Positions 9,587-26,969 of a stretch of DNA of 39,962 nucleotides are shown here, piece by piece. The first letter of the stretch is position 1. Each line of letters opens with the position of its first letter. The notes beneath the pieces were generated by a model that saw nothing but the letters and a program-made list of their open reading frames with translations, searched no databases and was not told where the DNA came from. Source of the stretch: Bacillota bacterium (GTDB taxonomy: Bacteria > Bacillota > Clostridia > Oscillospirales > Acutalibacteraceae); the NCBI GenBank assembly GCA_021769885.1, contig JAETSA010000001.1, positions 1 through 39,962 of the forward strand. Reading direction: 5' to 3'. A program made the translations under genes and the position numbers.

Positions 9587-9592
9587 GTCGAG

Positions 9593-9803: not shown

Positions 9804-9807
9804 AAAC

Positions 9808-10046: not shown

Positions 10047-10075
10047 CAAAAGCATCTCCTATACGCAGTATGATA

Positions 10076-10134
10076 GGATTTCTAAATTTTTTGATTGATT
10101 TTCGTAATCATTAGGCTCGTTTTCATTATATAAT
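10076..10134 (+). promoter_or_regulatory. AraC-type operator plus -10 box for the module 1 operon (site O1)
   Basis: The 33-bp element (10076-10108) contains TTTCTAAA, ten variable bases and GATTTTCGTAA. The two half-sites begin 20 bp apart, about two helical turns. The -10 hexamer TATAAT lies at 10129-10134, exactly 20 bp after the element, and no recognisable -35 is present, as expected for an activator-dependent promoter. The start codon of the first enzyme gene is at 10193. Binding by an AraC protein is an inference. Confidence 0.7.
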
Positions 10135-10153
10135 CAAAGTAGGATATTGTCAA
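10125..10153 (-). promoter_or_regulatory. Orphan araC promoter
   Basis: Minus-strand TTGACA (10153-10148), 17-bp spacer and TATAAT (10130-10125): a full consensus sigma-A promoter. It shares the palindrome ATTATATAAT with the divergent plus-strand promoter. Its gene has been lost, so it now reads into the IS200 relic. Confidence 0.75.
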
Positions 10154-10192
10154 ATATTCCGATTCAAAGTATGCAAGATTAAGGAGGATTTT

Positions 10193-12124
10193 ATGAAAAC
10201 AGGGAATATTGCTTTAAAGTTCAATGAACTTACGGGAAACTTTGAGGTTATACATAACGGCTTTTCTTGGGTCAGCGACGGCAGAAGACCGTATATTATT
10301 CTGAGAAAAAAGATAGGTCAAAAATATGTAAGCACTTACAGGGATTTATTCTCCGCTGCCAAGAAGTCCTTTGCATACTCCGACAATAAGGTTACCGCAC
10401 GCTTGGGACGCTATGTTGCCTTCGGGAAAACGCTGGATTTCACACTTATTTTAACTGCGGAAATCACAGGCGAAAATACCGTTGAATTTTCTTTAAAAGC
10501 AGAAAATGAAACAGGCTATGATATTCAGGCGGTGTATTTTCCTGCGCCTTTTAACTCGAAGAAAAAGGGAAAGGAATCCTATCATATTGACGCGATGCGG
10601 CAGGGCTTTTTGCTGCCTGATGGGTATAAGAAAAATGTTCTTTCCACCATCGGCTTTGCCCATTATTTAAGAAAAATCAATACGGGTGACTGCTATATGC
10701 CGTTTTGGGGCAGAGTTTGCGACCAAAAAGGCTTTACCGCCATTGCCGAAACGCCATATGATGCCTGTATGTTTTCTGCGTTCGGCAGACACGGCGCATT
10801 CGTTAATTCCGTACACTGGATGTCGTCCCTCGGTAAGCTTTCCTATGAAAGAAAGATTCGATTTATATTCCACGATGCTATGGATTACAATACCGCCGCA
10901 AAGGATTACAGAAACTACCTTATTGAAACCAATCAATTCGTTTCGATTGAGGATAAAATCAAGAAAAATCAAAATATCGAAAGACTGATTGGCTGTCCTG
11001 TCCTGCACCACAAGATTTTTTCACAGATTCAGCCTGCGTCAAAATTCTATGACGAAAACGGCACAAACAAATTCCTGTATGGAACCTTCCATCAGCGCGC
11101 AGAGGAAATGCAAAAAATCAAAAACCTTGGTCTTAATAAGCTGTATATCCATACGGACGGCTGGGGCGAACAGGGCTATGACAACAATCATCCGTACATA
11201 TTGCCGCCGTGCAAGGAAGCCGGCGGATGGGACGGGATGAAAACACTTTCCAATACCTGCCGTGATTTGGATTACATATTTGCACTGCACGACCAGTATC
11301 GTGATTTCTATTATACCTCGCCCGTATTCGATATGGAAAAGGCTGTAACGCATATGGACGGCACGCATCCATATTGCTCCATTTGGGATGGCGGCGAGCA
11401 CACCTTCCTTTGCGCGTCGCAGGCACTCGAGTTTGTGAAGAAAACGTATTCGGAGCTGGAAGAACACAATATCGATGTGCAGGGGGCATATCTGGATGTG
11501 TTTTCAGTGATGAACGGTGACGAGTGCTTCCACCCCAATCATACAATCACAAGAGAAGAAAGTATAAAACACCGTGCCGAATGCTTTGATTATCTGAATG
11601 AAAAGGGACTGATTATGTCCTCGGAAGAGCCTGCTATGCAGCTTTTAAATCACCTTGCGCTCGTGCATCACGGCCCATACACACTAAGACCGCAGGTGAA
11701 CGGAGAAGCTGTGGGCATACCTGTGCCGCTCGGCAGCCTTGTATTCCACGACTGCATTATGATTCCGTGGGATTGGTGGAATAACTGGGGGATTCCGAAA
11801 GGAGAAAGCGGGAATCTGCACTGCGCTTTAAATGCGGGTATGCCGTATTTCCACCCATATGTGGAAAAGGATATGAAATTAGGCAAAGACCCGCGTTCTG
11901 CCGATGCTGAACTTCTGGACGATGAAAAACTCCTTGCAGAGATTGCGCGAGTGAAACAGCTTGCCGAATTGCAGGCGAAGCTTTACAACAAAGAAATGGT
12001 GAAGCACGAATTTTTGGGCTGTTACGAAAGGCAAAAAGCAACCTATGCAGACGGAACGACGGTTACAATCGATTTGAAAGAAAACACTTACGAAATCAAG
12101 GAGAATGAAAATGCCGAGGCTTGA
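10193..12124 (+). CDS. GH101/GH129-like glycoside hydrolase, probable alpha-N-acetylgalactosaminidase-type
   Basis: A 643-residue protein without signal peptide. An N-terminal beta-sandwich (about 1-245) is followed by a TIM-barrel-like domain (about 260-560). The barrel carries LYIHTDGWGEQGYDN, a conserved LHDQYRDFYY strand, candidate nucleophile Asp435 in GAYLDVFS and candidate acid/base Glu478/479 in MSSEEP. This order resembles the endo- and exo-alpha-N-acetylgalactosaminidase families GH101 and GH129 and the related DUF5696 proteins. The substrate is therefore probably an alpha-linked GalNAc, the core sugar of mucin O-glycans, but exact family assignment needs a profile search. RBS AAGGAGG. 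First gene of a five-gene operon under site O1; the next gene overlaps its end by 14 bp. Confidence 0.62.
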   Translation: MKTGNIALKFNELTGNFEVIHNGFSWVSDGRRPYIILRKKIGQKYVSTYRDLFSAAKKSFAYSDNKVTARLGRYVAFGKTLDFTLILTAEITGENTVEFSLKAENETGYDIQAVYFPAPFNSKKKGKESYHIDAMRQGFLLPDGYKKNVLSTIGFAHYLRKINTGDCYMPFWGRVCDQKGFTAIAETPYDACMFSAFGRHGAFVNSVHWMSSLGKLSYERKIRFIFHDAMDYNTAAKDYRNYLIETNQFVSIEDKIKKNQNIERLIGCPVLHHKIFSQIQPASKFYDENGTNKFLYGTFHQRAEEMQKIKNLGLNKLYIHTDGWGEQGYDNNHPYILPPCKEAGGWDGMKTLSNTCRDLDYIFALHDQYRDFYYTSPVFDMEKAVTHMDGTHPYCSIWDGGEHTFLCASQALEFVKKTYSELEEHNIDVQGAYLDVFSVMNGDECFHPNHTITREESIKHRAECFDYLNEKGLIMSSEEPAMQLLNHLALVHHGPYTLRPQVNGEAVGIPVPLGSLVFHDCIMIPWDWWNNWGIPKGESGNLHCALNAGMPYFHPYVEKDMKLGKDPRSADAELLDDEKLLAEIARVKQLAELQAKLYNKEMVKHEFLGCYERQKATYADGTTVTIDLKENTYEIKENENAEA

Positions 12125-14030
12125 AATAAGAAATTATCGCGTATCCAAAGTAACGCAGGTAAGCGATATACCGCATCTTTCTTTGGAAAGGCAACCGCAC
12201 AAATCGAAATCCGACATTGATAATTTTGAAGGCTTGTTTATCGACTACGGCTGGCGCGAAACCTCGTATCCGTATACACAGCAGAATGCGTATACGGAAG
12301 AAAGTGAACAGGAAATTACGGTTGCCGTATTGGAGAATGATGATCTCTACGCCGAATTTCTGCCGACACTCGGCGGACGGCTTTGGAAGCTTTTTGACAA
12401 GAAAAAACAAAAGGATATTCTCTATACTAACGATGTGATACGCTTTCGGAATTTAAGCATCCGAAACGCTTGGTTTTCGGGCGGCGTGGAATGGAACTGC
12501 GGGATTATTGGGCATTCTCCGTTTACTTGTTCACAAATGTACTGCGCCTTTGTGCAGGGCAAAAACGGGGAAGATGTTTTAAGATTCTATGAATTTGAAC
12601 GCGTAAGAAATATCTATTATCAGATGGATTTCTGGCTCGACGGAAACAGGCTGATGACCGCGGTTCGCATTGAAAATCCGAATGCGGCGGTTGTGCCGAT
12701 GTATTGGTGGAGCAATATGGCAACGCCTGAATATAAGGGCGGCAGAGTGGTTGTGTCCGCCGACAGTGCTTACAATAATTCCGACGGAATGGGCATAAAA
12801 AAATCATCCATTCCGTTTGACAACGGCGTGGATGTGTCTTATCCCGAAAATATCCCGAATACGATAGACTATTTTTACGACATCCCGCAGAACGAAGCGA
12901 GGTGTATTGCAAATGTGGATAAAGACGGCTTCGGTCTTTTGCAGTTTTCAAGCAGTAATCTGAAGGGCAGAAAGCTTTTTTCGTGGGGACATAAAAAAGG
13001 CTCGCACCACTGGCAAAGAATGCTGACCGATAAAGCGGGAGACTATGTTGAGATTCAGGCGGGACTCGGCAAAACGCAGTATGAGTGTATCCCGATGCCG
13101 CCCAAAAGTGTATGGAGCTTTTCGGAATGCTATACGCTCGCCGATATTCCTGCGGATAAAGTCAATGCACCGTACAGTGAATTGGTGAATGCGGTAAAAC
13201 AACAGATTGCGTCTTTCGGCGGCACTGCGCAGTTGGATGAAAGCTTATCCGATTTTGCGGAAAATATCAGTCTGCAAAAGGGGGAAATCATTTTCAAGGG
13301 CAGCGGATTCGGTTATCTGCATACCGTGCTTGGCGGTAAAGCACCGAGTCATTTGGAATTTTTTGCGGACGATGAGGTGAAGCCGTGGCTCAAGCTTGCA
13401 AACGGTGAAAAAATTATAGATAAGCTATCCTTTGCCTATGGCGAAAAAATGGAAAATCTCCTGTTAAAAAATATGGATATTTGTAATGGGAATATCCCGT
13501 ATCAGCTAGCACTGCTTGCCTATGATAAAAGAGAATTTGAAAAAGCAAAGCACTACTGCGAACGCAGTCTGATTTTGGAGAATAACGAATACAACAATCA
13601 TCTGTACGCTTTCATTCTTTATCAGCTGTGCGAGGAGAATTGTGTTTATTTCGCCGAAAAAAGTATAAATATAAACAGCAGCAGCTATTGCCTTGCAGAG
13701 AGCATTTTATCCCTGCTGTTAAAGCAGGAAGCATACGGCGCAGTCATAAACTGCTTTCATAAGCTGTCGGAAGATTTAAAACAGAATGCAAGACTTTTAA
13801 TGTATCTTTCTATGGCGTATCTGCAATCGGGCAAGCCCCAAAAGGCGGAAGAAATTTTGCTCGGCAAAGGCGGCTTGGTTCTGCTCGATTTTCGCGAGGG
13901 CGATAAGTTTTTAGATACGCTTTACCGAGGTATTCGCAAAGAATTATATCACGAAAGCTATGATGCAATTACCGTACCCGAACAGTTTGATTTCATTGTA
14001 GCGGATTTTAAAACGGAGGAACAGGAATGA
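12111..14030 (+). CDS. DUF5107 domain protein with C-terminal TPR-like repeats
   Basis: A 639-residue cytoplasmic protein. Residues about 55-330 match the DUF5107 pattern, a beta-rich aldose-epimerase/galactose-mutarotase-like fold that often accompanies glycosidases: EFLPTLGGRLWKLFDK, NAWFSGGVEWN and YWWSNMATPE. From about residue 460 come paired helices with TPR character (LLAYDKREFEKAKHYCERSL, LSMAYLQSGKPQKAEEIL). ATG 12111 is preferred over ATG 12105 because AAGGAG (12098-12103) lies 7 bases before it. Overlaps the preceding gene and overlaps the next by ATGA. A sugar-binding or anomer-handling role is plausible but unproven. Confidence 0.78.
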   Translation: MPRLEIRNYRVSKVTQVSDIPHLSLERQPHKSKSDIDNFEGLFIDYGWRETSYPYTQQNAYTEESEQEITVAVLENDDLYAEFLPTLGGRLWKLFDKKKQKDILYTNDVIRFRNLSIRNAWFSGGVEWNCGIIGHSPFTCSQMYCAFVQGKNGEDVLRFYEFERVRNIYYQMDFWLDGNRLMTAVRIENPNAAVVPMYWWSNMATPEYKGGRVVVSADSAYNNSDGMGIKKSSIPFDNGVDVSYPENIPNTIDYFYDIPQNEARCIANVDKDGFGLLQFSSSNLKGRKLFSWGHKKGSHHWQRMLTDKAGDYVEIQAGLGKTQYECIPMPPKSVWSFSECYTLADIPADKVNAPYSELVNAVKQQIASFGGTAQLDESLSDFAENISLQKGEIIFKGSGFGYLHTVLGGKAPSHLEFFADDEVKPWLKLANGEKIIDKLSFAYGEKMENLLLKNMDICNGNIPYQLALLAYDKREFEKAKHYCERSLILENNEYNNHLYAFILYQLCEENCVYFAEKSININSSSYCLAESILSLLLKQEAYGAVINCFHKLSEDLKQNARLLMYLSMAYLQSGKPQKAEEILLGKGGLVLLDFREGDKFLDTLYRGIRKELYHESYDAITVPEQFDFIVADFKTEEQE

Positions 14031-15076
14031 AAAAGTGGATGAAAGTTCTGTTATCAATATTACTTGTTGCTGTGCTGATTGTCGGCGGTACACTTGGATT
14101 TGTAACCTTTTATCATAAAGATTACAAAGAGGTGGAAGACACCGCATTTAAGATTCTGCAGATCACCGATATTCATATTCTGAACGATGCAAAAAAGGAC
14201 GCAAAGGCTTTCAAAACGATTACCGCAATGGTCGAAACCGCAAAGCCCGATATGATTATTCTGACAGGCGATTTAACCAGCGAAAAAGAAAATTTCACGG
14301 CGTTTAAAACCGGTTGCGCATTTTTGGAAAGCTTCAACATCCCGTGGGCATTTGTATTCGGCAATCACGAGGGACTGGATATTTCCTATGCAGAAAATGA
14401 AGTCATAGACCCTGAAAAGATTGCGGACAGACAAACTTTGAGCGATTATCTCGAATCCCTGCCGAATTGTATTTATGAAGCGGGCGACGAAAACGTTGAT
14501 GGTATGGGGAACTATTATTACAATGTCAAAAATGAGAACGGCGAGGTCATTACCTCTCTGATTATGATGGATTCCCACAGCTATGATGAAGTAAACGGCG
14601 GCTATGACCATTTCCACGAGAATCAGGTGGAATGGTATGAAAACACGGTGAAAACCATTGCGAAAGAAGTAAACGGCGATGAAAGCAACGTCGTGCCGTC
14701 CCTTGTATTCTTCCACGTGCCTATGCTGGAATATATGACCGCCTATGACGAGGCAAAGGGTACAGAAAACCGCCTTTGGGGCTTCCGTTTCCCGAACGAA
14801 GACGGCACCCCTGCCGCAGATGATCAGATGTTTGAAAAAATGGTAGAGCTTGGGTCTACCAAGGGCTGTTTCGCAGGGCACGACCATATGAACAATTATT
14901 CCGTAATGAAAGACGGCATCCGTTTAACTTTCGGACTTTCCTGCGACCATAATATTTATGTGGTACCTGTGCGGGGCGGCGTGCTTATCAATGTGAAAAA
15001 CGACGGCTCTTTCACAACCCGGCACCTTATGCGCCACAGAGGTCAGAGCTCAATCACAATCGGCAAAGAACAATAA
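14027..15076 (+). CDS. Membrane-anchored calcineurin-like metallophosphoesterase (paralogue 1)
   Basis: A 349-residue protein with an N-terminal membrane segment (about 6-28) that would place the enzyme outside the membrane. The dimetal phosphoesterase motifs are in order: TDIH (Asp48, His50), TGDLT, FGNHE, FFHVP and GHDH. It resembles DCR2/PhoD-like metallophosphoesterases. ATGA overlap with the DUF5107 gene shows tight coupling in the operon. Two paralogues with the same layout occur at 22755 and 26970, one in each of the other surviving modules. The natural substrate is unknown; a phosphorylated glycan, glycolipid or nucleotide could fit. Confidence 0.88.
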   Translation: MKKWMKVLLSILLVAVLIVGGTLGFVTFYHKDYKEVEDTAFKILQITDIHILNDAKKDAKAFKTITAMVETAKPDMIILTGDLTSEKENFTAFKTGCAFLESFNIPWAFVFGNHEGLDISYAENEVIDPEKIADRQTLSDYLESLPNCIYEAGDENVDGMGNYYYNVKNENGEVITSLIMMDSHSYDEVNGGYDHFHENQVEWYENTVKTIAKEVNGDESNVVPSLVFFHVPMLEYMTAYDEAKGTENRLWGFRFPNEDGTPAADDQMFEKMVELGSTKGCFAGHDHMNNYSVMKDGIRLTFGLSCDHNIYVVPVRGGVLINVKNDGSFTTRHLMRHRGQSSITIGKEQ

Positions 15077-15101
15077 GTTGTATTAAAAAGGAATGTGTCT
15101 T

Positions 15102-16754
15102 ATGCATATTATAAATGTCGCAGATTGGGGAATTTATCCCGACAGCGATATAACAGAAAATTTATTCGCACTCATTGAAGCTTTAAAAAACACTTCCGAA
15201 GAAAAAACAGTCCGCTTTCCGTACGGTACATATTTTCTCGACGGTGCAAAATGCCGAAAGCATATGCTTTACATTACGAATACCGTCGGGGACAAGGAGT
15301 TTTCAGCGGAGGAAACACCGCACCTAAATGCAGTGCCTTTCTATTTTAATGGGATAAATCACCTTGTGTTTGACGGAAACAATTCGATTTTCATAATCCG
15401 CGGTAAGGTCACGAATATCGCACTGGAAGACTGTTGTGACATTACATTGAAAAATATGGAAATCCGTCACGCGCACCCCGATATGCACGAGCTCAAGGTT
15501 GTTCGAAAGCGTCTTTTTTCTGTTGAATTTGATATCGATAAAGACAGTGTTTATGAAGTGAAAAACGGCAAGCTGTATTTTAAGGGTGAGGATTACACTT
15601 GCGCCGCCGATGAGAATGCGCTGAATGCACATTGGATTGGTCTGATACGCAGTAAAACACCGAATCGGCTGAAGCGCGTGGCGCATCCGCTGATTGGCAG
15701 TACAGGCGTATCCGATTTACAAAACGGCAGAATCCACGTAAAATATTTGAACACATTTCGATTTGAGATGGGGGATTGCTGTTATCTGTTTGATGTCCGC
15801 CGTCAGTTTGCAGGCGTATTTGTGAACAGATGTAAAAATATAAAGCTGGATAACTTAAAACAGCGGTTTAATTACTCACTTGCGTTGGTTGCGCAGGACA
15901 GTGAAAATGTTTCACTTGTCAATTCCGAATTTGCGCCGGAGCAAAACGCACCGAGAAAAATGGCTTCTGTTGCGGACTTTATTCAGATTTGTATGTGCAG
16001 AGGAAATGTACGCATCGATAATAACCGTTTTGACGGTGCGGGTGACGACTGCCTGAACGTGCACGGAATCCATTTTAAGATAACCGAGAAAAAGGGCAAC
16101 CAAATCACCGTAAGGTTTATGCATCCGCAGTCACACGGATTTAACCCGTTGCGCGCAGGGGATACAATTGCGTTTATAAATCCGAAAACATTGTTGGAAA
16201 CCGCGCAGGCAAAGATTATAAAGTCGGAGCTTATCGGGGAATACGAAATCCGTCTGACACTCGACCCCGCCGAACAGGCAATCGTCGGGGAGGTGATTGA
16301 GGATATTTCCGCCTGCCCGAATGTAACCTTTTCGAAGAATATCCTGAACCGTATTATCACAAGAGGCTTACTGCTAACCACAAGAGGCAAGGTTCTTGTG
16401 GAAAACAATCGTTTTATCAGTACCTCTATGAGTAGTATTTTGCTTTCCGACGATGCGAAAAGCTGGTATGAAAGCGGAATGTGCTGTGATGTGACCATTC
16501 GAAATAATACAATTGAATACTGCGGACAAACGCCCATTCTGATTAAACCCGAAAACAGCGTGCACCGCGCAGCAGTACACAAAAATATTAAAATACACGG
16601 AAATACCTTTAAAAATTATAAAGGCTATTGCATAAAGGCGAAGTCATCTGATATGATTGAAATTGAAAACAATCGCTTTCGTTCAAGTAAAATCATTCAA
16701 CAGAATAACTGCGGAAATATTTCCGTGCAAAAGCAAGGGGAAAAGAATGGATAA
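15102..16754 (+). CDS. GH110-like alpha-1,3-galactosidase (beta-helix)
   Basis: A 550-residue right-handed parallel beta-helix protein with many short NIKLDN-, VRIDNNRF- and VTIRNNTIEYCG-type coils. Asp292 (SVADFIQ) and the pair Asp315-Asp316 in GAGDDCLNVHG follow the arrangement expected for inverting GH110 enzymes, which remove terminal alpha-1,3-galactose from blood-group B or linear B antigens and have the same D/DD layout as GH28. No signal peptide, so apparently cytoplasmic. ATG 15102 is chosen over 15093 because AAAAGGA ends 9 bases before it. It ends inside the start of the GH95 gene (8-bp overlap). Another beta-helix glycosidase or epimerase is the main alternative. Confidence 0.78.
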   Translation: MHIINVADWGIYPDSDITENLFALIEALKNTSEEKTVRFPYGTYFLDGAKCRKHMLYITNTVGDKEFSAEETPHLNAVPFYFNGINHLVFDGNNSIFIIRGKVTNIALEDCCDITLKNMEIRHAHPDMHELKVVRKRLFSVEFDIDKDSVYEVKNGKLYFKGEDYTCAADENALNAHWIGLIRSKTPNRLKRVAHPLIGSTGVSDLQNGRIHVKYLNTFRFEMGDCCYLFDVRRQFAGVFVNRCKNIKLDNLKQRFNYSLALVAQDSENVSLVNSEFAPEQNAPRKMASVADFIQICMCRGNVRIDNNRFDGAGDDCLNVHGIHFKITEKKGNQITVRFMHPQSHGFNPLRAGDTIAFINPKTLLETAQAKIIKSELIGEYEIRLTLDPAEQAIVGEVIEDISACPNVTFSKNILNRIITRGLLLTTRGKVLVENNRFISTSMSSILLSDDAKSWYESGMCCDVTIRNNTIEYCGQTPILIKPENSVHRAAVHKNIKIHGNTFKNYKGYCIKAKSSDMIEIENNRFRSSKIIQQNNCGNISVQKQGEKNG

Positions 16755-18975
16755 GATTTGGTATAAAAAAACTGCCCGAAATTGGCGTGAAGCTTTGCCG
16801 CTCGGCAACGGTCTTATGGGTGTTATGGTGTACGGGTCTTCAAAAAAAGAAAGATTGTGCTTTAACGATGGCACGCTGTGGTCAGGGTATCCGAAGGATT
16901 ACAATTCGGCTGAAAGCTTTGAGAATCTTGAAAAAGTGCGCAGTCTGATTTTTGAGGGCAAAAACAGCGAAGCAGATGCCCTTTGCGAAGATAAACTGAA
17001 AGGCTTTTACAGCGAAACATTTTTGCCCCTCGGGGATGTTTTGCTGACCTTCGGAAAAACAGATAAACACATTCTTTCAAGAAGCCTGGATTTATCCACA
17101 GGGATACATACGGTGCAATCGAACGGCTTTACCTCTGAGCTTTTTTCTTCCTATCCTGACAAAGTAACCGTCTATCAGGTAAAAGCAGACAAGCGGTTTT
17201 CGGTGAAAATCAAGGCAAAAAGCAAGCTGCGCCACAGTGTCGGCACCGGCGCAAACGAATTATGTCTTTACGGCACCGCACCCGATTATGCCGCTCCGGA
17301 TTATTTAAGGACAGAGCTTTTTCCGATAAAATATAATGAGAAAAAAGGAATGGCGTTTTGTCTTTGTGCACAAGCGTTTACGAACGGAACGATTACAAAC
17401 GGAAAACACAGTTTGAAAATTAAAAATGCTACGGAGCTGACAATTTACTTTGCAACGCAGACGGGCTTTCACGGGTTTGATAAAATGCCTAACACAGATG
17501 TGAAAGCGGTTATGCAAAAGTGTAAATCGAAGCTGAACCGCGTGGAGAAGAATTACAACAAGCTGAAAAAAAGGCATATTGCGGACTTTTCAAAGCTTTA
17601 CAAGCAGCAAAGCATTTCCTTTCATAAGGATGTCGATATGCCGGCAGATGCATTGCTTGACAGCGTTAAAAACGGAGGGGACGATAAATCCCTTTGCGAG
17701 CTGTTATATAATTACGGTAAATATATGATAATTTCCGGTAGCCGTGAAGGCGGTCAGCCGCTGAATCTGCAGGGAATATGGAACCACGCCGTTCGTCCGC
17801 CGTGGAGCAGTAATTATACGGTGAACATCAACACGCAGATGAATTATTGGGGAGCGTCGCGCGCGGGGCTGTCGGAATGCATCGAACCGCTCGTTCAGAT
17901 GGTTTACGAAGCCTTGCAAAACGGCAGAAAAACAGCAGAGGTCAATTACGGCTGCCGTGGCTTTGCCTGCAATCATAATGTAGATATATGGAGAAAAACG
18001 CCACCCGTGCAGGGAGATGCAAATTATATGTTTGCACCTCTTTGCGGCGTGTGGCTTGCGAACGAGATATATGCACATTATAAAAACGGATTTTTAAGTG
18101 CCTATCAAGACAAAATCAAAGAAATCGTTACCGAATCTGCAAGGTTCGCGAATGACTTTCTTGTTTTGCACGACGGGCAGTATGTGGTTTGCCCCTCGGC
18201 ATCTCCTGAAAATGTGTATATGCACAACGGCAAAAAGTGTAAGCTCGATTACGCCTCTGCCTTTGATATGGGGCTTGTAAAGCAGGTGTTTCGTAATGCG
18301 CTTGAAATTTGTGAGGACGAAAATCTGAAAGCGGAAATTACAGAAAAGCAGGAAAAGCTCTATCCGTTCGAAAACAGTGCAAACGGTATATGCGAATGGC
18401 ATAAGGTGTACGATACGCCTGAAAAAGGGCACAGGCATTTTTCTCCGCTGTATGCCTTTTACCCCGCCAAAATTATCGGGTATTATGCCGACCGTGAAAA
18501 AACCGAATGGGTAAAACAGCTTTTCCATTACAGAACAGAAAATGCACGGCAGTATATCGGCTGGTCGGCGGCGTGGGGCATCTGTCTTGCCGCAAGACTT
18601 CGGGAAAGTGAAACTGCGCAAAAGATTATCCGCAGTATGTTATGCCATTCCGTATTTAAAAATTTGTTCTGCGTGCATCCGCCGTTTTATTTCCAGATTG
18701 ACGGCAACCTCGGCTTTGTTGCAGGCATAAATGAAATGCTTTTAACCGAGGAAAACGGCATTGTCGAATTATTGCCCGCTCTGCCCAAAAATTTTTCGGA
18801 ATCGGGCGAGGTTCAAGATATGGTCGTAAATGGCGCGAAAATCAGTTTTGCCTGGAAGAACGGCACGGTTGTAAGCGTTTCTGCCGACAAACCTGTTCGG
18901 ATTCTCAAAAAGCATATTTCCGACAATGCGGCGCAAGAAAATACGGTGAGATTGGTTGCTTCGTTGTCAGAATAA
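16747..18975 (+). CDS. GH95 alpha-L-fucosidase
   Basis: A 742-residue protein collinear with GH95: an N-terminal beta domain (WREALPLGNGLMGVMVYG, LCFNDGTLWSG), a linker and an (alpha/alpha)6 barrel. Catalytic residues known from Bifidobacterium AfcA have counterparts: the Asn pair in NINTQMNYW, the Glu in CPSASPEN and the Asp in QIDGNLG. GH95 enzymes mostly hydrolyse alpha-1,2-L-fucose of H antigens; a few act on alpha-L-galactosides. Start ATG 16747 follows AAGGGG and overlaps the GH110 stop; a longer in-frame start at 16657 would lie inside GH110. No signal peptide. It is the last gene of the module 1 operon and converges with the truncated araC, overlapping it by 9 bp with no terminator between. 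Confidence 0.92.
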   Translation: MDKIWYKKTARNWREALPLGNGLMGVMVYGSSKKERLCFNDGTLWSGYPKDYNSAESFENLEKVRSLIFEGKNSEADALCEDKLKGFYSETFLPLGDVLLTFGKTDKHILSRSLDLSTGIHTVQSNGFTSELFSSYPDKVTVYQVKADKRFSVKIKAKSKLRHSVGTGANELCLYGTAPDYAAPDYLRTELFPIKYNEKKGMAFCLCAQAFTNGTITNGKHSLKIKNATELTIYFATQTGFHGFDKMPNTDVKAVMQKCKSKLNRVEKNYNKLKKRHIADFSKLYKQQSISFHKDVDMPADALLDSVKNGGDDKSLCELLYNYGKYMIISGSREGGQPLNLQGIWNHAVRPPWSSNYTVNINTQMNYWGASRAGLSECIEPLVQMVYEALQNGRKTAEVNYGCRGFACNHNVDIWRKTPPVQGDANYMFAPLCGVWLANEIYAHYKNGFLSAYQDKIKEIVTESARFANDFLVLHDGQYVVCPSASPENVYMHNGKKCKLDYASAFDMGLVKQVFRNALEICEDENLKAEITEKQEKLYPFENSANGICEWHKVYDTPEKGHRHFSPLYAFYPAKIIGYYADREKTEWVKQLFHYRTENARQYIGWSAAWGICLAARLRESETAQKIIRSMLCHSVFKNLFCVHPPFYFQIDGNLGFVAGINEMLLTEENGIVELLPALPKNFSESGEVQDMVVNGAKISFAWKNGTVVSVSADKPVRILKKHISDNAAQENTVRLVASLSE

Positions 18976-19638: not shown

Positions 19639-20654
19639 TTATTAAAAAATCTGTCTTTATGGACGGTGTAATTGCACTGCCGTTTGAGAATTTTAAGCTT
19701 TGGGATGTAAACAATCCGAATTTGTATATCGTGAAAGTAAAAACGAAAGACGATGAAATCACAAAACGCACGGGATTTAGAACCGTAGAAGTAAAAGGAG
19801 CGAAAGTGCTTCTGAACGGCAAAGAAATCTACCTGAAGGGCTGTGAATGGATGCCCGGCTCACATCCCGATTACGGTATGGCAGAGCCGCTTTCGCACAG
19901 CGTCAAATGTCTGTCTCAGCTGAAAGAGGCGGGATGTGTATTTACGCGTTTCCATTGGCAGCAGGATGCAACTCTGTTTGATTGGTGTGATGAAAACGGT
20001 CTTTTAGTGCAGGAAGAAATTCCGTATTGGGGCAGTCCGAAAAGAGCAACGCCAACACAGCTCCGCATTGCCAAACAGCAAGCGGACGCCATGGTGCAGT
20101 ATCATTCCCACCATCCGTCCATTGTCTGTTGGGGCGTCGGCAACGAGCTCGGCGGACGAACCAAAGAAACCATACGGTATGTCGACACAATGTACGGCTA
20201 TTTTAAATCCAAGGACCGTACCCGCCTTGTAAATTACGTGTCCAACACACTGCATATGAAACGCTTTTTGGCAAAAGACGATGCCGCTATGCACGGCGAT
20301 ATCGCTATGTGGAACGAATATCTCGGTCTTTGGCAGCCCTGTAAAAATGTGAACAAGACTATTATTGAAACGCATAAAAGATGCGGCAATATGCCGTCTA
20401 TGGTCACGGAGTTCGGTTTGTGCGAACCGCATTTTAAAGGCGGAGATGCAAGAAGAACCGAAATCCTTCTTCAAAGAATCCCGATTTACAAATCGCTTTC
20501 CAATATGGTCGGTTATGTTTGGTTCTCGCTCAATGATTACAGAACACATTGCGGCGAAGCGGAAGAGGGCAGATTCAAACAAAGGATTCACGGCTCAACA
20601 GACTTGTATGCCAATGAAAAACCGTCGTACGCCGTTTTTAAAAATATAAAGTAA
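19632..20654 (+). pseudogene. 5'-truncated GH2 beta-galactosidase/glucuronidase-type gene
   Basis: The frame begins in the immunoglobulin-like sandwich (LPFENFKLWDVNNPNLY) and continues through the complete TIM barrel: acid/base Glu in GVGNELGG (codon at 20145) and nucleophile Glu in MVTEFGL (codon at 20409), ending ATKPSYAVF-like (KPSYAVFKNIK). The N-terminal sugar-binding jelly-roll domain, start and RBS are missing; the first ATG (19659) has no ribosome binding site. The gene therefore looks non-functional unless read from an unusual start, although both catalytic residues remain. Ancestrally it was presumably divergent from the neighbouring araC and shared its promoter. Confidence 0.85.
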
Positions 20655-20661
20655 AACAAAA

Positions 20662-20697
20662 AACAAGCACATCGGCAATATCGTCGATGTGCTTGTT
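20662..20697. terminator. Bidirectional terminator between GH2 relic and GH101-like gene
   Basis: AACAAGCACATCG (20662-20674) and CGATGTGCTTGTT (20685-20697) form a perfect 13-bp stem. A-rich sequence lies before it and TTTTT after it, so it can terminate transcription from both strands. Confidence 0.88.
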
Positions 20698-20702
20698 TTT
20701 AC

Positions 20703-22049
20703 TTATTCGCAGACAATCAGCAATGCAGTTTTCGGGGGAACGGACAATTCAATTTTGCAGTTTACAATTTCGGCTTCTTTTAAGAATACATTCCCGTTTT
20801 CGGTTATCTTATATAGTTTGGCTTTTGAAACGTCACTTTCCCATATATCCCAAGCTCTGCAATCGCCCTTTGTGCTGTAAGCAATATATTGTTTTTCTTT
20901 ATGCACAAAAGGTAAAAAGAGCGTGTCACCGTCTTTTATCACCTTGCCGTTGCGTGTGATTTTTTCACCCTTGGAGTAGGAAGCAATATCCTCGCTGAAC
21001 TGACAGGAAAGGTTGTTGCCTTTGCCGTTCATCGCTAATCTTTTATGCGCATTGAGAAAATGGCACGGCACCTGATAGGTTGCGAAACGGTGTATAAATT
21101 CTTCCGCCCAATGCGGATCATCCTTTTTAACAATGTCCTCACCGTGCATATTGCCGTAAAGAAGCTGATTATACTTTTTCTCTCTGTATTCGCCGCCGCA
21201 GTAAACAGAGGGCGGTGTATCAATCAATTCCTGCGGCGTCAGTCTGTAGCACCACCAGCTTAACGGAATTAAGCCGACGGTGTCATGGAGATATTTACGG
21301 AAATGATCCCGCGGTAGTCCGAAAATCGGCTTATTCGGCAGACTTTCACTTTCCTTATAGGTAAATTCCGATGTTATGTCTATTCCCTTCGCATGCACAT
21401 ATTTTATCATTTCACGCCGTGCGTCCTGCATTTCTTTTATGCTGACATAGGGTGCATAGTTTTTATAACACTGAAAATTGTCTACGTGGATTGTGCCCGT
21501 TTCGGCAATAAACGGAAAGGTTTCCACAAATCGGTCGAACTGTCTTTTGAAAAGTCCCGACTCCCAATACGCCTTGTGGCAGGTCTTATAGCACTTTCTG
21601 CCGTTATAGCTTTCAATCGCGTGGGGCTTGCCGTTTTTCTTTCGAATCAGTGCATTTGCCTTTACGAAATCCCCGAAAGACGGCGCATTTTCGTACGCAT
21701 CGTTAAAATTGATATGCACGCTTACGACGGAATGGTATTTTTCAGCCTCTTCCGAAAGCCACCGAAAGCTGTCATAGGCCGTTTTATCCTCAGGTCTTTT
21801 CAGTGCCTCGTTGACCTCAAAAAAATCGGGATATTTGTCATCGTGCCCGAGATACTGCCAACCGACCAAATAATAGATTTTTGTGATTCCCTGCGTGATA
21901 TTGTCAATCTTTTTTATGTATTCCAACGCATCTGCAAAAGTAAGCAGAACTTTGCTTTTGCCGACATTTTCTTTATCGGGATGCGCCATACCTAGCTTCA
22001 TTACCATACATTTTGAATAATCATAGTGGAAATGTAGAACTTCATTCAT
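20703..22049 (-). CDS. Compact GH101-like endo-alpha-N-acetylgalactosaminidase
   Basis: A 448-residue protein without signal peptide. It resembles the catalytic barrel of GH101, which cleaves the Gal-beta-1,3-GalNAc core from Ser/Thr of mucins: KIYYLVGWQYLGHDDKYPDF, VVSVHINFNDAYE, candidate nucleophile Asp190 in TIHVDNFQ, candidate acid/base Glu228 in ITSEFTY, and a short C-terminal beta domain. Classic GH101 proteins are far larger, secreted and multidomain; this one is a bare catalytic core. ATG 22049 has GAGG 8 bases upstream. It is transcribed leftward from site O4, alone, and ends at the bidirectional terminator. An exo-acting relative is possible. Confidence 0.68.
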   Translation of the reverse strand: MNEVLHFHYDYSKCMVMKLGMAHPDKENVGKSKVLLTFADALEYIKKIDNITQGITKIYYLVGWQYLGHDDKYPDFFEVNEALKRPEDKTAYDSFRWLSEEAEKYHSVVSVHINFNDAYENAPSFGDFVKANALIRKKNGKPHAIESYNGRKCYKTCHKAYWESGLFKRQFDRFVETFPFIAETGTIHVDNFQCYKNYAPYVSIKEMQDARREMIKYVHAKGIDITSEFTYKESESLPNKPIFGLPRDHFRKYLHDTVGLIPLSWWCYRLTPQELIDTPPSVYCGGEYREKKYNQLLYGNMHGEDIVKKDDPHWAEEFIHRFATYQVPCHFLNAHKRLAMNGKGNNLSCQFSEDIASYSKGEKITRNGKVIKDGDTLFLPFVHKEKQYIAYSTKGDCRAWDIWESDVSKAKLYKITENGNVFLKEAEIVNCKIELSVPPKTALLIVCE

Positions 22050-22082
22050 AAATACAACCTCACATTGAATCAATCTATCAAC

Positions 22083-22141
22083 AGGATAGCACACTGCACG
22101 CCGCATTCCTTTCGAAAACCTACTTAAAACTTTAGAAATTC
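22083..22141 (-). promoter_or_regulatory. AraC-type operator plus -10 box for the GH101-like gene (site O4)
   Basis: On the minus strand the 33-bp element (22141-22109) has TTTCTAAA, ten variable bases and GGTTTTCGAAA. It matches site O2 at 26 of 33 positions without gaps. The -10 candidate TATCCT (22088-22083) lies exactly 20 bp downstream, as at the other three sites; no -35 is evident. Confidence 0.65.
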
Positions 22142-22163
22142 AACCATAAAATCCGAAATAGCA

Positions 22164-22222
22164 GATTTTCTAAAGAATTTGGCAGGTTTCCGAAATTATT
22201 TTGACAACGGCAACTGTATAAT
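22164..22222 (+). promoter_or_regulatory. AraC-type operator plus -10 box for the lipoprotein relic/GH35 side (site O3)
   Basis: The plus-strand element 22164-22196 has TTTCTAAA, ten variable bases and GGTTTCCGAAA; it is the most divergent copy (22 of 33 matches to O2). TATAAT at 22217-22222 is again exactly 20 bp downstream. It is back to back with O4, 22 bp apart. A TTGACA at 22201 is only 10 bp from the -10 and is not a usable -35. Confidence 0.6.
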
Positions 22223-22258
22223 GGTTTCATAAAACTTTTAAAAAAAGGGTAGTTTTCT

Positions 22259-22721
22259 ATGAAAGTATCCAAAATTATGGTTGCATCTGCGGCGGTGCTT
22301 GCCGCTGTCGGCGTCCTTGCGGGCACGCTCAGCGCCTGCAAAAAGGATGAACAGCCGCAAAGCGACAGTGCCTACCTCACAAAAGTCAATGGATTGCCAC
22401 AAACATTCCGTTTGATGAAAAATACTATTCCAACGGCAAATCGAACTGCGCGGGGTCTGCCGCCACGATGTTTCAAGCAATGATTTCAGAACCAAAAGAT
22501 TGAAAATCAGCAGTTACCTTGTGCATACGGTCAATGAACGAAAACTGCTGGTTAAACCCGATTGCAGCAATATCAATGCTTATGCAAATCCTTTTAACGC
22601 AAAATTACAGATAAGCAAGGGCGGTTACAAGCAATCCATTTTATGGGGCAATTATTGGGGCAAAAGATTTTATCTTTATAATAAAAACACTTTTGCGTTT
22701 TCGGTTTCATTCGGTGTATAA
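22259..22721 (+). pseudogene. Decayed lipoprotein gene
   Basis: The start is intact: RBS AAAGGG and a lipoprotein signal peptide ending in LSAC (lipobox Cys at residue 23). After about codon 42 the coding sense continues in two other frames. One runs through about 22384-22500 (WIATNIPFDEKYYSNGKSN...), the other through about 22512-22718 (SYLVHTVNERKLLVKPDCS, ending YNKNTFAFSVSFGV). At least two frameshifts, probably with internal deletions, have destroyed it. The original protein was exported and lipid-anchored; I do not recognise the family. It might have been a surface glycan-binding or hydrolytic protein of this locus. Confidence 0.6.
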
Positions 22722-22722
22722 T
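22693..22722 (+). promoter_or_regulatory. Possible promoter of the phosphoesterase-GH35 pair
   Basis: TTGCGT (22693-22698), 18-bp spacer, consensus TATAAT (22717-22722), 32 bp before the start at 22755. It overlaps the end of the lipoprotein relic, so it could be fortuitous; transcription from site O3 may instead run through. Confidence 0.4.
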
Positions 22723-22754
22723 TAAATCATTATAAAATAAAAGGGGAATTTGTT

Positions 22755-23861
22755 ATGACCAAGAAAGCAAAAATCATAAAGGGAATAAAAATTACAGTGT
22801 GTGTATTGCTGGCAGCGGTACTGATTATTGCAGGCGTGCTGTTCTTTCCGTTGACAGGGAAAAAGCACACCGAGGTGTGGAGCGCAGATCAGGCGTTTGA
22901 CATCGCAAAAATTCAGACGGTGGAAAAAACTAGAGAGGATTTTAAAATCCTGATGTTTACCGATACGCAGCTTTGGGCAAACCTCGGCAAAAATAAAGAA
23001 TGCTACGAACAAATGGATGCGCTTGTCGAAAAAACACAGCCTGATTTGATTACACTGCCTGGGGATGTTTTATCGGCAATGTCAAGCCGATTTTCGATAA
23101 ATAATTTTATCAAGCATATGGAAAGCTACGGCGTGCCGTGGGCACCTGTTTACGGCAATCACGACAATGAGATTCCATCTAATTCACTTAACTGGCAGAC
23201 AGAGAAATATGTGGCTGCCGATCACTGCCTGATGCAGAAAGGCCCGTCCAATCTTTATGGGTGCGGCAACTATGTGATTAACATTGTGGAAAACGGAAAT
23301 CCCGTTTACAGTATCTTTATGTTGGACAACGGAAGATATACAGAGTATACGGACGAAGAAACAAACGAGACGTATACCAAAGAGATTTATATGGGCTATG
23401 AGCAGATTGCGTGGTACGAATGGAATGTAAAGGGCATTGCCGAAGCGACAGGAAAAACCGTGCCCTCTATGACCTTTTCTCACTTTGCCCAGCCTGAATT
23501 CCGCGAGGCTGTTGAAAAGTACGGTGTTAAAGATGAAAATGATATTTATACAATCCCCGAAGAATACGGCTTTGGGTATTGTCAGTATCTGCCCGGTGCC
23601 GCACCTGTCAAATCAGGCTTTGTAGACAAATGCAAGGAGCTTGGCTCTACGAAATACATTTTCTGCGGTCACGACCACGAGAATAATGCGAGCATTACCT
23701 ATGACGGCATTACGTATACCTACGGTCTGAAAACAGGTCTCTCTCCCGTGCCGTGGAACTATGCAAAGGAAACAGGCGGAACACTGATTACCATTACAGG
23801 CAGTCAGGAGAAACAGCAGGTAAATATTGAACATTTTGTAATGAACGGAGAAAATGCATGA
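22755..23861 (+). CDS. Membrane-anchored calcineurin-like metallophosphoesterase (paralogue 2)
   Basis: A 368-residue protein with N-terminal membrane segment (about 9-33), then the metallophosphoesterase motifs FTDTQ (the usual His of DxH is Gln), PGDVLS, YGNHDNE, FSHFAQPEF and CGHDHENN. RBS GGGGAA before ATG 22755. It overlaps the GH35 start by ATGA, so the two are translated together. Gln in place of the first metal-binding His is shared by some active members of the superfamily but distinguishes it from the paralogues at 14027 and 26970. Substrate unknown. Confidence 0.87.
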   Translation: MTKKAKIIKGIKITVCVLLAAVLIIAGVLFFPLTGKKHTEVWSADQAFDIAKIQTVEKTREDFKILMFTDTQLWANLGKNKECYEQMDALVEKTQPDLITLPGDVLSAMSSRFSINNFIKHMESYGVPWAPVYGNHDNEIPSNSLNWQTEKYVAADHCLMQKGPSNLYGCGNYVINIVENGNPVYSIFMLDNGRYTEYTDEETNETYTKEIYMGYEQIAWYEWNVKGIAEATGKTVPSMTFSHFAQPEFREAVEKYGVKDENDIYTIPEEYGFGYCQYLPGAAPVKSGFVDKCKELGSTKYIFCGHDHENNASITYDGITYTYGLKTGLSPVPWNYAKETGGTLITITGSQEKQQVNIEHFVMNGENA

Positions 23862-25939
23862 ACATACAGATTAACGCGAATCCCAAAGAGGTGCTCGACG
23901 GCCATTTCAATTATTCAAATATGGAAAGCGCATACGGCGCAAACACGCAGTATTTTACCAAAAACGGCAAGCCGTTTACGCCGATTGCAGGCGAATTGCA
24001 TTTTTCACGTGTGCCTCGTGAACGCTGGAGAGAAACGCTTTTGAAAATGCGCGCGTGCGGCATCAATACGGTTTCTACTTATGTGTTCTGGAATTACCAC
24101 GAGGAGATAAAAGGACAGTTTGACTTTTCAGGCAATAAGGATATTTCTACCTTTCTTAAAATTTGCAGAGAGATAGAAATGCCTTGTATTCTGCGTATCG
24201 GACCGTGGTGCCACGGCGAGGTAATAAGGTGCGGATTCCCGAAACGCATACATAAAATGGCGAAAAAAAGATGCGATAATCCGAAATATCTTGCTGAAGT
24301 AAAGGAATTTTGGCAGGGGCTGTATAAAGAGGTGAAACCGTATCTTGATGGTGAAACGGTCATTGGGATTCAGCTGGAAAATGAATATACCGGCTCCACC
24401 GAGCATATTCGCACGCTTCGTAAAATTGCAGAAGAAATCGGATATAAAACGCCGTTTTTTACGATGACGGCATGGCCGTCAGGCAAGCCCGACAAGGATT
24501 TTCTGCCGACAATGGGTGGGTATCCCGATGCACCGTGGACATACGGCAAAACCGCTCTAAAACCGAATAACCGTTTTGCAATTACATCTGCGAAAACAGA
24601 GGATGAAATCGGCGGAGATTTGTTCAAAAGCAATGCCGCGAAAAAAGGCGCTTATGACGATGTGCCTTACGCTTTCTGTGAAACAGGACCCGGCAATCAG
24701 GTGACACAGCATCGCCGACCGTATATCGGCGAAAAAGACGGCTACGGCGTCGGTTTTGCGAAATTTGCAAGCGGTGCAAACTGGCTGGGGTATTATATGT
24801 TCTGCGGCGGTGCAAACCCGAATGACAGACTGATGCAGGAAAACCGTTTGACAGGCTATCCGAATAACTATCCGATTATTGATTATGATTTTCAGGCTCC
24901 CATAAGCCGTTACGGCGTCTGTCGCTCGCACGGGGACAGGCTCCGTCTTATGCATTTGTTTATCAATGAATTCGACCCCGAAATCTGCACAAAGCAGGCA
25001 TATTTTCCAAAATGGAAAAGCAATAATCCCAATGATATTTCATTTTTGAAATGCTCTGTCCGAGCAGACGAAAACGGGTGCGGATATTTCTTTGCATCTA
25101 CTTATGAAAAAGGGTTGCAGTATCAGGACTTTAAAGATGTCTCGGTAACCTTTGAAAGCAAAGGTAAAAAAGTAAATCTGCCGAAGATAGATGTAAAAGC
25201 AGGCACAATGTTCTTTTATCCGTTCAACATTACGCTCGGCAATGTGCATTTTGATTACATTCTTGCACAGCCGATTGCAAAAACACAGATCGACGGAAAG
25301 ACCGTTTGCTATTTTGCACAGTGCGAGGGAATCACGCCCAAATGCGCAGTAGACGGGAAAGAAATTTCGCTTAATTTCAGCGAAAACGGTACGGTTATAA
25401 ATGACGTAAAAATCGTTGTCATTCCCTATGAAAAGGCAAAGCAGTTTCATTTTATAAACGGAAAAGCATATTTTCTGAACGGCACGGTTTACAGCGATAA
25501 CGGTAAAGTTTACTGCGAGTATGCATCCGATACAGACATTCAAAATGAAATAACACTCACAAAAGCAAGCAAACGAAAACTGCCCTATAACTACTTTTTG
25601 TATTCTACAGGCAAACGCAGTTGTTATGCCTTGAAACTGCCGCAGGACATCCTGAAAGACCTTTTCGACGTCAAGCTCGAGTTCGATTTTGACGGGTTGA
25701 ATTTACAGGTGTTCAGCGGAAATACGCTTATCAACGATTATTTCAATATCGACAGAAAATTTGTGATGCATCTGCGCGATTACAAAAAATATATCGAGAA
25801 AAACAGTACGCTTGTCATCCGCACGGCACCGAAAACAAAATTCGGTATTTCCAATGTGTATAACGAAATACCTGTACCGCTTTATTCCGATAGTTTGGTT
25901 TTGAAATCCGCAGATGTGATAGAAGTGCACACAATATGA
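23858..25939 (+). CDS. GH35 beta-galactosidase
   Basis: A 693-residue protein. The N-terminal TIM barrel carries the GH35 signature GELHFSRVPRERW, VSTYVFWNYHE, RIGPWCHGE and VIGIQLENEYTG with acid/base Glu176; Glu275 in FCETGPG is the candidate nucleophile. Beta-rich domains follow (from about residue 380). It removes terminal beta-galactose from glycans and has no signal peptide. Starts inside the phosphoesterase stop (ATGA). Its stop codon lies in the left arm of the terminator hairpin. Confidence 0.9.
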   Translation: MNIQINANPKEVLDGHFNYSNMESAYGANTQYFTKNGKPFTPIAGELHFSRVPRERWRETLLKMRACGINTVSTYVFWNYHEEIKGQFDFSGNKDISTFLKICREIEMPCILRIGPWCHGEVIRCGFPKRIHKMAKKRCDNPKYLAEVKEFWQGLYKEVKPYLDGETVIGIQLENEYTGSTEHIRTLRKIAEEIGYKTPFFTMTAWPSGKPDKDFLPTMGGYPDAPWTYGKTALKPNNRFAITSAKTEDEIGGDLFKSNAAKKGAYDDVPYAFCETGPGNQVTQHRRPYIGEKDGYGVGFAKFASGANWLGYYMFCGGANPNDRLMQENRLTGYPNNYPIIDYDFQAPISRYGVCRSHGDRLRLMHLFINEFDPEICTKQAYFPKWKSNNPNDISFLKCSVRADENGCGYFFASTYEKGLQYQDFKDVSVTFESKGKKVNLPKIDVKAGTMFFYPFNITLGNVHFDYILAQPIAKTQIDGKTVCYFAQCEGITPKCAVDGKEISLNFSENGTVINDVKIVVIPYEKAKQFHFINGKAYFLNGTVYSDNGKVYCEYASDTDIQNEITLTKASKRKLPYNYFLYSTGKRSCYALKLPQDILKDLFDVKLEFDFDGLNLQVFSGNTLINDYFNIDRKFVMHLRDYKKYIEKNSTLVIRTAPKTKFGISNVYNEIPVPLYSDSLVLKSADVIEVHTI

Positions 25940-25980
25940 CAAAAGGTCTTGCCGACTGCATCGGTAAGACCTTTTGTCAT
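25936..25980. terminator. Bidirectional terminator between GH35 and araC
   Basis: ATGACAAAAGGTCTT and AAGACCTTTTGTCAT form a long, nearly perfect stem, extended inward by CCGA/TCGG, around a CTGCA loop; ACATTTTT follows on the plus strand. It serves the convergent genes GH35 (+) and araC (-). Confidence 0.88.
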
Positions 25981-25986
25981 ACATTT

Positions 25987-26835
25987 TTAGAATTGTAGCT
26001 TTCGGAATTTTCCGGGAGAAACGCCCTCGTTTTCCGTAAAAAAGCAAATAAAATTGGATTCGCTGTTGAAGCCTGTTTCATAGGCGATAGCGGCAACGGA
26101 CATTTCTGTTTTTTGCAGCAGATATTTTGCCTTGTTAAGCCGTGTTATCAAAACGTATTCATACGGCGAAAAGCCTGTCTGCTGTTTAAAAACTCTTGAA
26201 AAATGCGAAATGCTCATCAGCGTTCTGTCTGCAAGCTTTTGTACGGTCAGTTTTTCGTTCAGATTTTCTGCAATATAATCTTTAATTTCCTGTATATTCT
26301 CCTCGTAATTTGCTTCGCCCTTGCTCTTGATGCTTTGCGGATTCAGAAGCTCTGCAAACAGCTTGTAAATATCCAAGGACATATTTAACTCCGACGGCGG
26401 GTTCACGCCGCTGATGCTGTCATATATACGGAAAAGCAGTTTTTTCACATGGTGTATATCCCGGCATTTCACAAGACTGCCGTCACCTTTTTCTATTTCC
26501 TCAAACAGCTCAAAGCTGTTTGCACCGCTCAGATGTATCCATATGGATTCGAAGTTGTCGTTTGTATAATATTCGTGCGGCTGATAGCAGTCGAGAATCA
26601 CCGTATCTCCTGCACGCGCCGTGATGTGCCTACCATCCTTGACAAACGTAAAGGTGCCGTCAATGATATGCGTAATCAAAAGACTGTTATAGTTCTTTCG
26701 GATTAAATGATAGCCCTTCACGCAGAAAAAATGCCCCGCGCTGATGGGATAATAATACAGCTTTTTTGCAGTTTGTGACGGCGAAGAAAAATAAACCTCC
26801 GATTTTTTCAATACGCCATGTTCTGTGGATTTCAA
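25987..26835 (-). CDS. AraC-family transcriptional regulator
   Basis: A 282-residue one-component regulator, the only intact one of three in the window. The N-terminal cupin-type sensor domain (about 15-150) has YHLIRKNYNSLLITHIIDG, AGDTVILDCYQPHEYYTND and WIHLSG. The C-terminal AraC DNA-binding domain (about 180-282) has LTVQKLADRTLMSISHFSRVF and MSVAAIAYETGFNSESNFICFF. The TTG at 26835 is preferred as start: AGGAGG ends 8 bases before it, whereas the GTG at 26844 overlaps that site. It is divergent from the oxidative sugar operon and is the likely activator at sites O1-O4; the inducer is probably a sugar released by the hydrolases. Confidence 0.9.
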   Translation of the reverse strand: MKSTEHGVLKKSEVYFSSPSQTAKKLYYYPISAGHFFCVKGYHLIRKNYNSLLITHIIDGTFTFVKDGRHITARAGDTVILDCYQPHEYYTNDNFESIWIHLSGANSFELFEEIEKGDGSLVKCRDIHHVKKLLFRIYDSISGVNPPSELNMSLDIYKLFAELLNPQSIKSKGEANYEENIQEIKDYIAENLNEKLTVQKLADRTLMSISHFSRVFKQQTGFSPYEYVLITRLNKAKYLLQKTEMSVAAIAYETGFNSESNFICFFTENEGVSPGKFRKLQF

Positions 26836-26864
26836 CAAAAGCACCTCCTATTAAAAGTATGATA

Positions 26865-26923
26865 GGATTTCTAAATTTTTTGGTTGATTTTCGTAAGCAT
26901 TCGTTTTGTTTTCATTATATAAT
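26865..26923 (+). promoter_or_regulatory. AraC-type operator plus -10 box for the oxidative operon (site O2)
   Basis: The element at 26865-26897 differs from O1 at only two positions. It contains TTTCTAAA, ten variable bases and GATTTTCGTAA, with GATTT half-sites starting at 26866 and 26886. TATAAT at 26918-26923 lies exactly 20 bp downstream, and the downstream half-site occupies the place of a -35 box, typical of AraC-type activation. Confidence 0.72.
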
Positions 26924-26942
26924 CAAAGTAGAATAATGTCAA
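26914..26942 (-). promoter_or_regulatory. Consensus promoter of araC
   Basis: Minus-strand TTGACA (26942-26937), 17-bp spacer, TATAAT (26919-26914). The -10 is one half of the palindrome ATTATATAAT, the other half being the -10 of the divergent operon, so the two polymerases must compete. The araC leader would pass through the operator element, which suggests autoregulation. Confidence 0.78.
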
Positions 26943-26969
26943 ATATTCTAAATGAAGGAGTATAGAAAT

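Follow-up and report, generated by a model that had tools for sequence, protein, structure and literature searches.

The stretch analysed here, hereafter the window, comprises 39,962 nucleotides of contig JAETSA010000001.1 (positions 1 to 39,962; GenBank assembly GCA_021769885.1) from a bacterium of the Acutalibacteraceae. It carries an island of glycan-hydrolase and sugar-catabolism genes in which an operator-like element recurs at four promoters, termed O1 to O4. An AraC-family regulator with a cupin-type N-terminal domain and two helix-turn-helix motifs (HTHs) is encoded at 25987–26835 on the minus strand, and is the proposed binder of all four sites. Divergently from its gene runs the presumed O2 operon (26952–33819, plus strand), encoding a metallophosphoesterase, two dehydrogenase-like proteins, a tagaturonate reductase, a dehydratase of the altronate/galactarate type and an amidohydrolase. 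The presumed O1 operon (10193–18975, plus strand) comprises DUF5696, DUF5107, metallophosphoesterase, GLAA-B/beta-helix (GH110-like) and GH95 genes, with membership judged from spacing. Between these operons lie a GH101-like gene behind O4 (20703–22049, minus strand; its start was placed by eye from the ribosome-binding site and the sequence of a related genome, G016, and the mechanically called open reading frame (ORF) extends to 22106) and the presumed O3 operon (22260–25939, plus strand), with a phosphodiesterase-type lipoprotein gene, a metallophosphoesterase gene and a GH35 gene. The first of these three (22260–22700) is broken in the window and full-length in G016 (L062:10752–11903; our own numbers for genomes, contigs and loci are prefixed G, C and L). 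A second, truncated AraC paralogue (AraC2; 18967–19638, minus strand) is fused by deletion to a truncated GH2 gene.

Scanning the window with TTTCTAAA-N10-GRTTTYCGWAA gave matches without any mismatch at 10079, 22167 and 26868 on the plus strand and at 22138 on the minus strand, the four places where an earlier note on this DNA had put a 33-bp element. With up to three mismatches allowed, five matches were found, O1 to O4 and one other, against a chance level of 0.22 on average and 2 at most in 100 shuffles of the window. A −10 hexamer begins at the same distance from every site, 20 nt past the 33-bp element, that is, 21 nt past the last conserved A: TATAAT at O1 (10129–10134), O3 (22217–22222) and O2 (26918–26923), all on the plus strand, and TATCCT at O4 (22083–22088, beginning at 22088 on the minus strand). 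At spacings of 15–19 bp, the closest −35-like hexamers have 3, 3, 4 and 4 mismatches to TTGACA at O1 to O4. The four-site observation is thus confirmed, including the constant −10 distance and the lack of a usable −35. The divergent O3/O4 pair is also kept in G016.

In an alignment of sites from the source genome and its relatives (33 rows), the element spans 34 bp, made up of a left half, eight loose bases and a right half. The two halves repeat one 13-bp half-site in direct orientation, TAGGATTTCTAAA on the left (or a variant beginning CAG) and TWGNTTTTCGNAA on the right. The true left edge lies about 2 bp further left than the earlier note had drawn it, at TAGGA or CAGGA in most of the relatives' sites. 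When the left block is compared over 32 sites with the sequence at offsets of 13–47, agreement peaks at offset 21 with 8.56 of 13 positions; no other offset exceeds 5.97, and offset 20 reaches 5.25 (UBA7101_c and L085_b are registered one base off in the alignment, and UBA7101_b, partly N, was excluded from this count). The half-site spacing of 20 bp that had been proposed is rejected by this count; the period is 21 bp. The predicted operators thus run from 10074 to 10107 (O1, plus strand) and from 26863 to 26896 (O2, plus strand), each TAGGATTTCTAAA / TTGATTTTCGTAA, from 22162 to 22195 (O3, plus strand; CAGATTTTCTAAA / CAGGTTTCCGAAA), and from 22110 to 22143 (O4, minus strand; TTGAATTTCTAAA / TAGGTTTTCGAAA). 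The placement of the downstream half-site at the −35 position held, with an overlap of about 2 bp, because a −35 hexamer with a 17-bp spacer would begin at column 33. Two direct half-sites, the downstream one at −35, and a fixed −10 phase support the AraC-type activator operator layout suggested earlier, with binding itself a prediction.

For the genome-wide scan we used a sequence-only model, R1, of 61 columns including the −10 box, built from 15 sites of relatives and none from the source genome. It replaced the loose pattern, which is near background: with up to three mismatches that pattern gives 32 matches in the genome and 23 for a reversed control, and as an IUPAC pattern at this setting it was discarded as too loose for the purpose. 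In the 2.32-Mb genome, R1 found O2 (E = 4.5e-11), O1 (1.5e-9), O4 (5.1e-9), O3 (6.5e-8) and a fifth site, C29:105054 (6.5e-7), with 150 of 1911 first-look candidates scored. The sixth-best match is at chance level (E = 0.14), and within the window only O1 to O4 appear up to an E of 5. The exact pattern matches only these four sites, and the many random genome matches that the earlier note had weighed as a possible outcome were not found. In 98 related genomes, scanned under stricter filters with 55 candidates scored in each, strong sites are confined to genomes with a close relative of the full-length AraC protein. Weaker R1 matches were also seen at G019:C10:71436–71494 (4.2e-4) and G020:C11:1753–1811 (9.9e-4), in two genomes that have this regulator (AraC1), as possible further targets.

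The fifth site, unlinked to the island, precedes by about 310 bp a gene that encodes a 538-residue LPXTG-type surface protein; gene and predicted operator occupy G000:C29:105054–106980 (L075), G000 being the source genome. Its −10 box, TAAACT, is weaker. By eye, the protein has a signal-peptide-like start and an LPXTG-like end; a Pfam search of it gave no match, and its homologue in G019 has an LPXTG anchor. Homologues of the gene (E < 1e-60) occur in 7 of 39 genomes of the genus. The site is found about 300–340 bp upstream in all five that also have the AraC protein (G000, G016, G025, G012 and G019) and is missing in both that lack AraC1 (G007, and G038, which has the AraC2 type only). G003, G006, G020 and G013 (the last with a 46% identical AraC) have the regulator and no such homologue, and so fall outside the comparison. 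The gene adjoins araC in G012 and G019, whose sites were in the training set, and lies elsewhere in the genome in the other three, whose sites were not. Of the claim that one regulator runs the whole island, the assignment to the product of 25987–26835 survives the computational tests, while the predicted regulon extends beyond the island.

The C-terminal part of this product matches the tandem HTH models HTH_18 (2.4e-23) and HTH_AraC (6e-15), both over the cut-off, and its N-terminal domain matches AraC_binding (5.8e-8; 33 bits, cut-off 21.1), with a predicted role in sugar sensing. None of the 25 matches listed, of 28 in all, reaches the cut-off of a named NCBIfam subfamily (AraC, RhaS, MelR and so on), AraC itself scoring 77.9 of 208 bits. 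By AraC identity, the nearest named relatives are Ruminococcaceae UBA7101 and UBA7212; the same genus includes Candidatus Fimenecus excrementavium. A close relative of the protein (E < 1e-40) is encoded in 15 of the 98 genomes. R1 matches with E < 1e-5 occur in 12 of these 15, and the remaining 83 genomes have none. Training sites came from nine of the twelve; G000, G020 and G025 supplied none. Under laxer filters some match at E ≤ 0.1 is found in 26 of the 39 genomes of the genus, so only the strong matches are telling.

The position of the site relative to araC points the same way. In species outside the training set (L078, L080–L083 and L085) it stands just upstream of araC, divergently, in six of six cases. 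Over 15 of the 16 loci from named genomes (L079, the G016 record, was excluded) it is present in ten, and the remainder are a contig end, a gene fragment, G025 and two remote relatives. A search for the element alone (up to 400 bp upstream of araC, at least 17 of 24 fixed positions, −10 sought at gaps of 10–32 nt) covered 21 araC genes, G020 being excluded for its contig end. A divergent element stands at 16 of the 21. Fifteen of these 16 have their best −10 box, or one that ties for best, at a gap of exactly 21 nt. Two sites fell outside the stretch covered, that of G019 at about 410 bp upstream and that of G013 at the 3′ end of araC. In G006 the araC1 orthologue (L067 7836–8682) matches in two overlapping pieces, its frame apparently shifted near the front, and the operator is well kept. 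The motif, its repeat and spacing, its co-occurrence with the regulator and its conserved targets are all read directly from these sequences, and the genome scan, the sites divergent from araC and the distribution over the AraC clade together support the earlier naming of the 25987–26835 product as the probable regulator, its binding to the sites being a prediction.

It is highly probable, on sequence grounds, that an activator of the AraC/XylS family, most likely the product of 25987–26835, has its two-half-site operator in this element. Two subunits would bind the two direct 13-bp half-sites, which, being 21 bp apart, would lie on one face of the helix. The downstream half-site, ending 21 nt before the −10 box and overlapping the −35 position by about 2 bp, would place the bound activator where it could replace the missing −35 and recruit RNA polymerase. 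The predicted regulon would consist of the four island promoters and the one unlinked LPXTG-type gene. Binding, activation and the nature of the inducer are what we infer here. The inducer is probably a sugar from host glycans: GH95, GH110-like, GH101-like and GH35 genes among the targets, and GH29 in the G016 operon, suggest fucosylated, O-linked ones.

Several observations weigh against this reading. The training sites came from AraC neighbourhoods, in genomes that overlap nine of the twelve matching ones, so the co-occurrence is partly circular. Two genomes without a close AraC have weaker matches (G014, 5.1e-5; G032, 8.2e-5), and weak sites may have been missed because only part of the first-look candidates was scored. 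G040, G050 and G093 encode AraC proteins 35–36% identical to that of the window and have no site. These three form a separate group on long branches with modest support (87/74) in an AraC tree from which 2 of 24 rows were excluded as fragments (G016_A1bfrag and G006c), and the site is present with the AraC proteins of G074 (37% identical) and G001 (39%). In G025, which has AraC1, the right half-site is degenerate and the −10 box stands at 19, a shift of 2 bp. At the L085 site (4766–4826), near an AraC1 gene and upstream of a DUF5107-type gene, base 31 of the element is A and the −10 box lies one base further. Finally, a −35-like hexamer with at most two mismatches exists in 7 of the 33 sites, so activator dependence may not be strict; in G019 and G020 it is near consensus (one mismatch, 17 bp) and overlaps the site.

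The foremost rival, which we consider unlikely, is that AraC paralogues share the island, the full-length protein serving O1 and O2 while O3 and O4 answer, or once answered, to the truncated AraC2 or to another AraC. No araC gene lies beside O3 or O4, and the AraC2 product, 42% identical to the full-length AraC, keeps both HTHs. In G016 and G038 its full-length orthologues are each divergent from a site of the O1–O4 kind, with unchanged −10 spacing, so the two specificities are close. However, AraC2 of the window no longer has a promoter or the N-terminal sensor region, and base 31 separates the sites. At 13 sites divergent from AraC1-clade genes this base is G (11) or T (2). It is A at all four sites divergent from the AraC2 regulators of G016 and G038 and those of G001 and G074. 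A fifth A-type site lies close to AraC2 in G016, upstream of the GH110-like and GH95 genes; O1 to O4 and the C29 site have G. Base 31 type thus appears to track the regulator clade, as a correlation, and since the AraC2 relatives stand beside A-type sites the full-length AraC is the likely regulator of O1 to O4. The grouping of AraC2 with G001 and G074 has 91/88 support and carries a long-branch warning, and among the HTH residues compared with base 31 the G001 regulator shares its His with the AraC1 clade although its site is of the A type. For the single regulator proposed earlier, base 31 therefore favours the full-length AraC, with the qualification that a second, truncated paralogue is present.

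It is less probable still that the protein represses, with RNA polymerase blocked by the operator at promoters that would be weak in its absence. In favour of this, the near-consensus −35 hexamers of G019 and G020, and one with two mismatches in G012, stand at 17 bp and overlap the right half-site. Against it, the whole of the site precedes the −10 box, its end being at the −35 edge, and in 26 of the 33 sites the best −35-like hexamer has at least three mismatches. Tandem AraC sites upstream of mapped starts in Caldicellulosiruptor have likewise been read as activator sites (PMC8579813). Activation by the full-length AraC remains the preferred reading.

The likeness of the four sites might also reflect shared ancestry of duplicated promoter DNA with no common binding protein, and for O1 and O2 the ancestry is real: they are copies of one 144-bp segment (10016–10159, plus strand, and 26805–26948; 83% identical) that takes in the ribosome-binding site of araC together with the opening bases of the gene. 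The left end of the O1 copy is a decayed araC start, as read by eye, and at L080 an intact araC stands divergently beside such a site and the DUF5696 gene that is also found behind O1. The window therefore has at most three separate sites, and the count of four independent instances given before does not hold. O3, O4 and C29, in contrast, have the element and −10 spacing of O2 but no more extended repeat in common with it (C29 by eye), and the element recurs upstream of other kinds of gene in other species; pure shared ancestry is rejected on these grounds, its probability being practically negligible. Chance as the source of the four sites is likewise rejected by the shuffles, the R1 scan and the repeat structure.

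The truncated paralogue and the duplicated promoter bear on how the island arose. Compared with its counterpart in G016 (G016:C27:95024–134107), the window island has the same block order, circularly permuted, with several deletions: G016 99907–95024 corresponds to window 10193–15076, and G016 134107–101397 to window 15085–33816. Missing from the window are a GH29 gene, a GH2 gene, most of the phosphodiesterase-type lipoprotein gene and the front of AraC2. In G016, AraC2 and GH2 are full-length, with an operator and a DUF5107-type gene in between; one deletion took the front of AraC2, its operator, the DUF5107-type gene and the front of GH2, and left the fusion at window 18967–20654. The GH110-like and GH95 genes, which have their own A-type site in G016, have none in the window, where the GH110-like gene begins 16 bp behind the preceding gene. 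A tandem duplication followed by complementary deletions would explain the araC start carried by O1; excision as a circle and re-insertion is an alternative. Tentatively, and at somewhat less than an even chance, we suggest that a two-regulator island collapsed to one: it would have been permuted, the front of AraC2 and the A-type operators deleted, and the GH110-like and GH95 genes captured by a duplicated AraC1 promoter, with the unlinked LPXTG gene as a conserved member of the regulon. The window flanks have no island-scale match and one 63-bp match in the G016 stretches compared; in G016, other contigs carry the YchF/tRNA-Arg flank and the gene of the right flank. Left of the window island stands a tRNA-Arg (CCG) gene followed by an apparent decayed IS200-type transposase (9510–10016, by eye); a search of the window for an att-type copy of the final 27 bases of that tRNA gene, at up to three mismatches, found none.

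For an uncultured gut lineage, these results offer a checkable predicted regulon, in which host-glycan hydrolases, an oxidative sugar route and a cell-wall surface protein would stand under one small activator. In related genomes the motif can serve as a probe for additional targets, and the promoter duplication, together with the truncated second regulator, suggests how such an island can be rewired. The motif is real and well supported; the type of switch is well known and ordinary in kind. We saw no prior description of the motif among the open-licence papers listed by our searches; one of them, PMC5583593, names AraC once, in its reference list.

Part of the O2 operon recalls the L-fucose cluster of Campylobacter jejuni, an oxidative, non-phosphorylating route with an amidohydrolase and an altronate-dehydratase-like enzyme. 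L-fucose oxidation of that type proceeds through a fucose dehydrogenase, a fuconolactonase, a fuconate dehydratase and an aldolase. The window has dehydrogenase, amidohydrolase and GD_AH dehydratase domains in the O2 operon, the dehydratase scoring under the galactarate cut-off (221.8 of 730.85), and domain searches of the six ORFs of 26952–33819 gave no aldolase domain. It differs from the C. jejuni cluster in having a tagaturonate-reductase-type enzyme (545.8 bits, cut-off 359) and a zinc-type dehydrogenase. The operator itself resembles that of Escherichia coli AraC at araBAD, where two direct half-sites lie about two turns apart, the downstream one overlaps the −35 and the regulator gene is divergent; the window has both this layout and the divergent gene. 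By sequence, the solved structures nearest to the window protein include the DNA-binding domain of E. coli AraC (2k9s), with only residues 180–278 matching (E = 1.9e-9). AraC-family L-rhamnose regulators of Bacillales, Bacteroides and Enterococcus have predicted sites that are direct repeats of 21-bp period and differ in sequence from group to group, as described in one report (PMC3870299). These systems have in common with the window element the 21-bp direct repeat and regulons for sugar catabolism; they are likened to it by repeat layout, not by motif sequence or orthology, the window targets being glycan hydrolases and an oxidative sugar operon. In Caldicellulosiruptor bescii, local AraC-family regulators are reported to have tandem-repeat sites that lie ahead of candidate mapped promoter elements and are interpreted as sites of activation (PMC8579813). 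The C. bescii targets concern plant polysaccharides, unlike those of the window, and the likeness is one of layout and not base by base: both have tandem sites and local regulators of carbohydrate loci.

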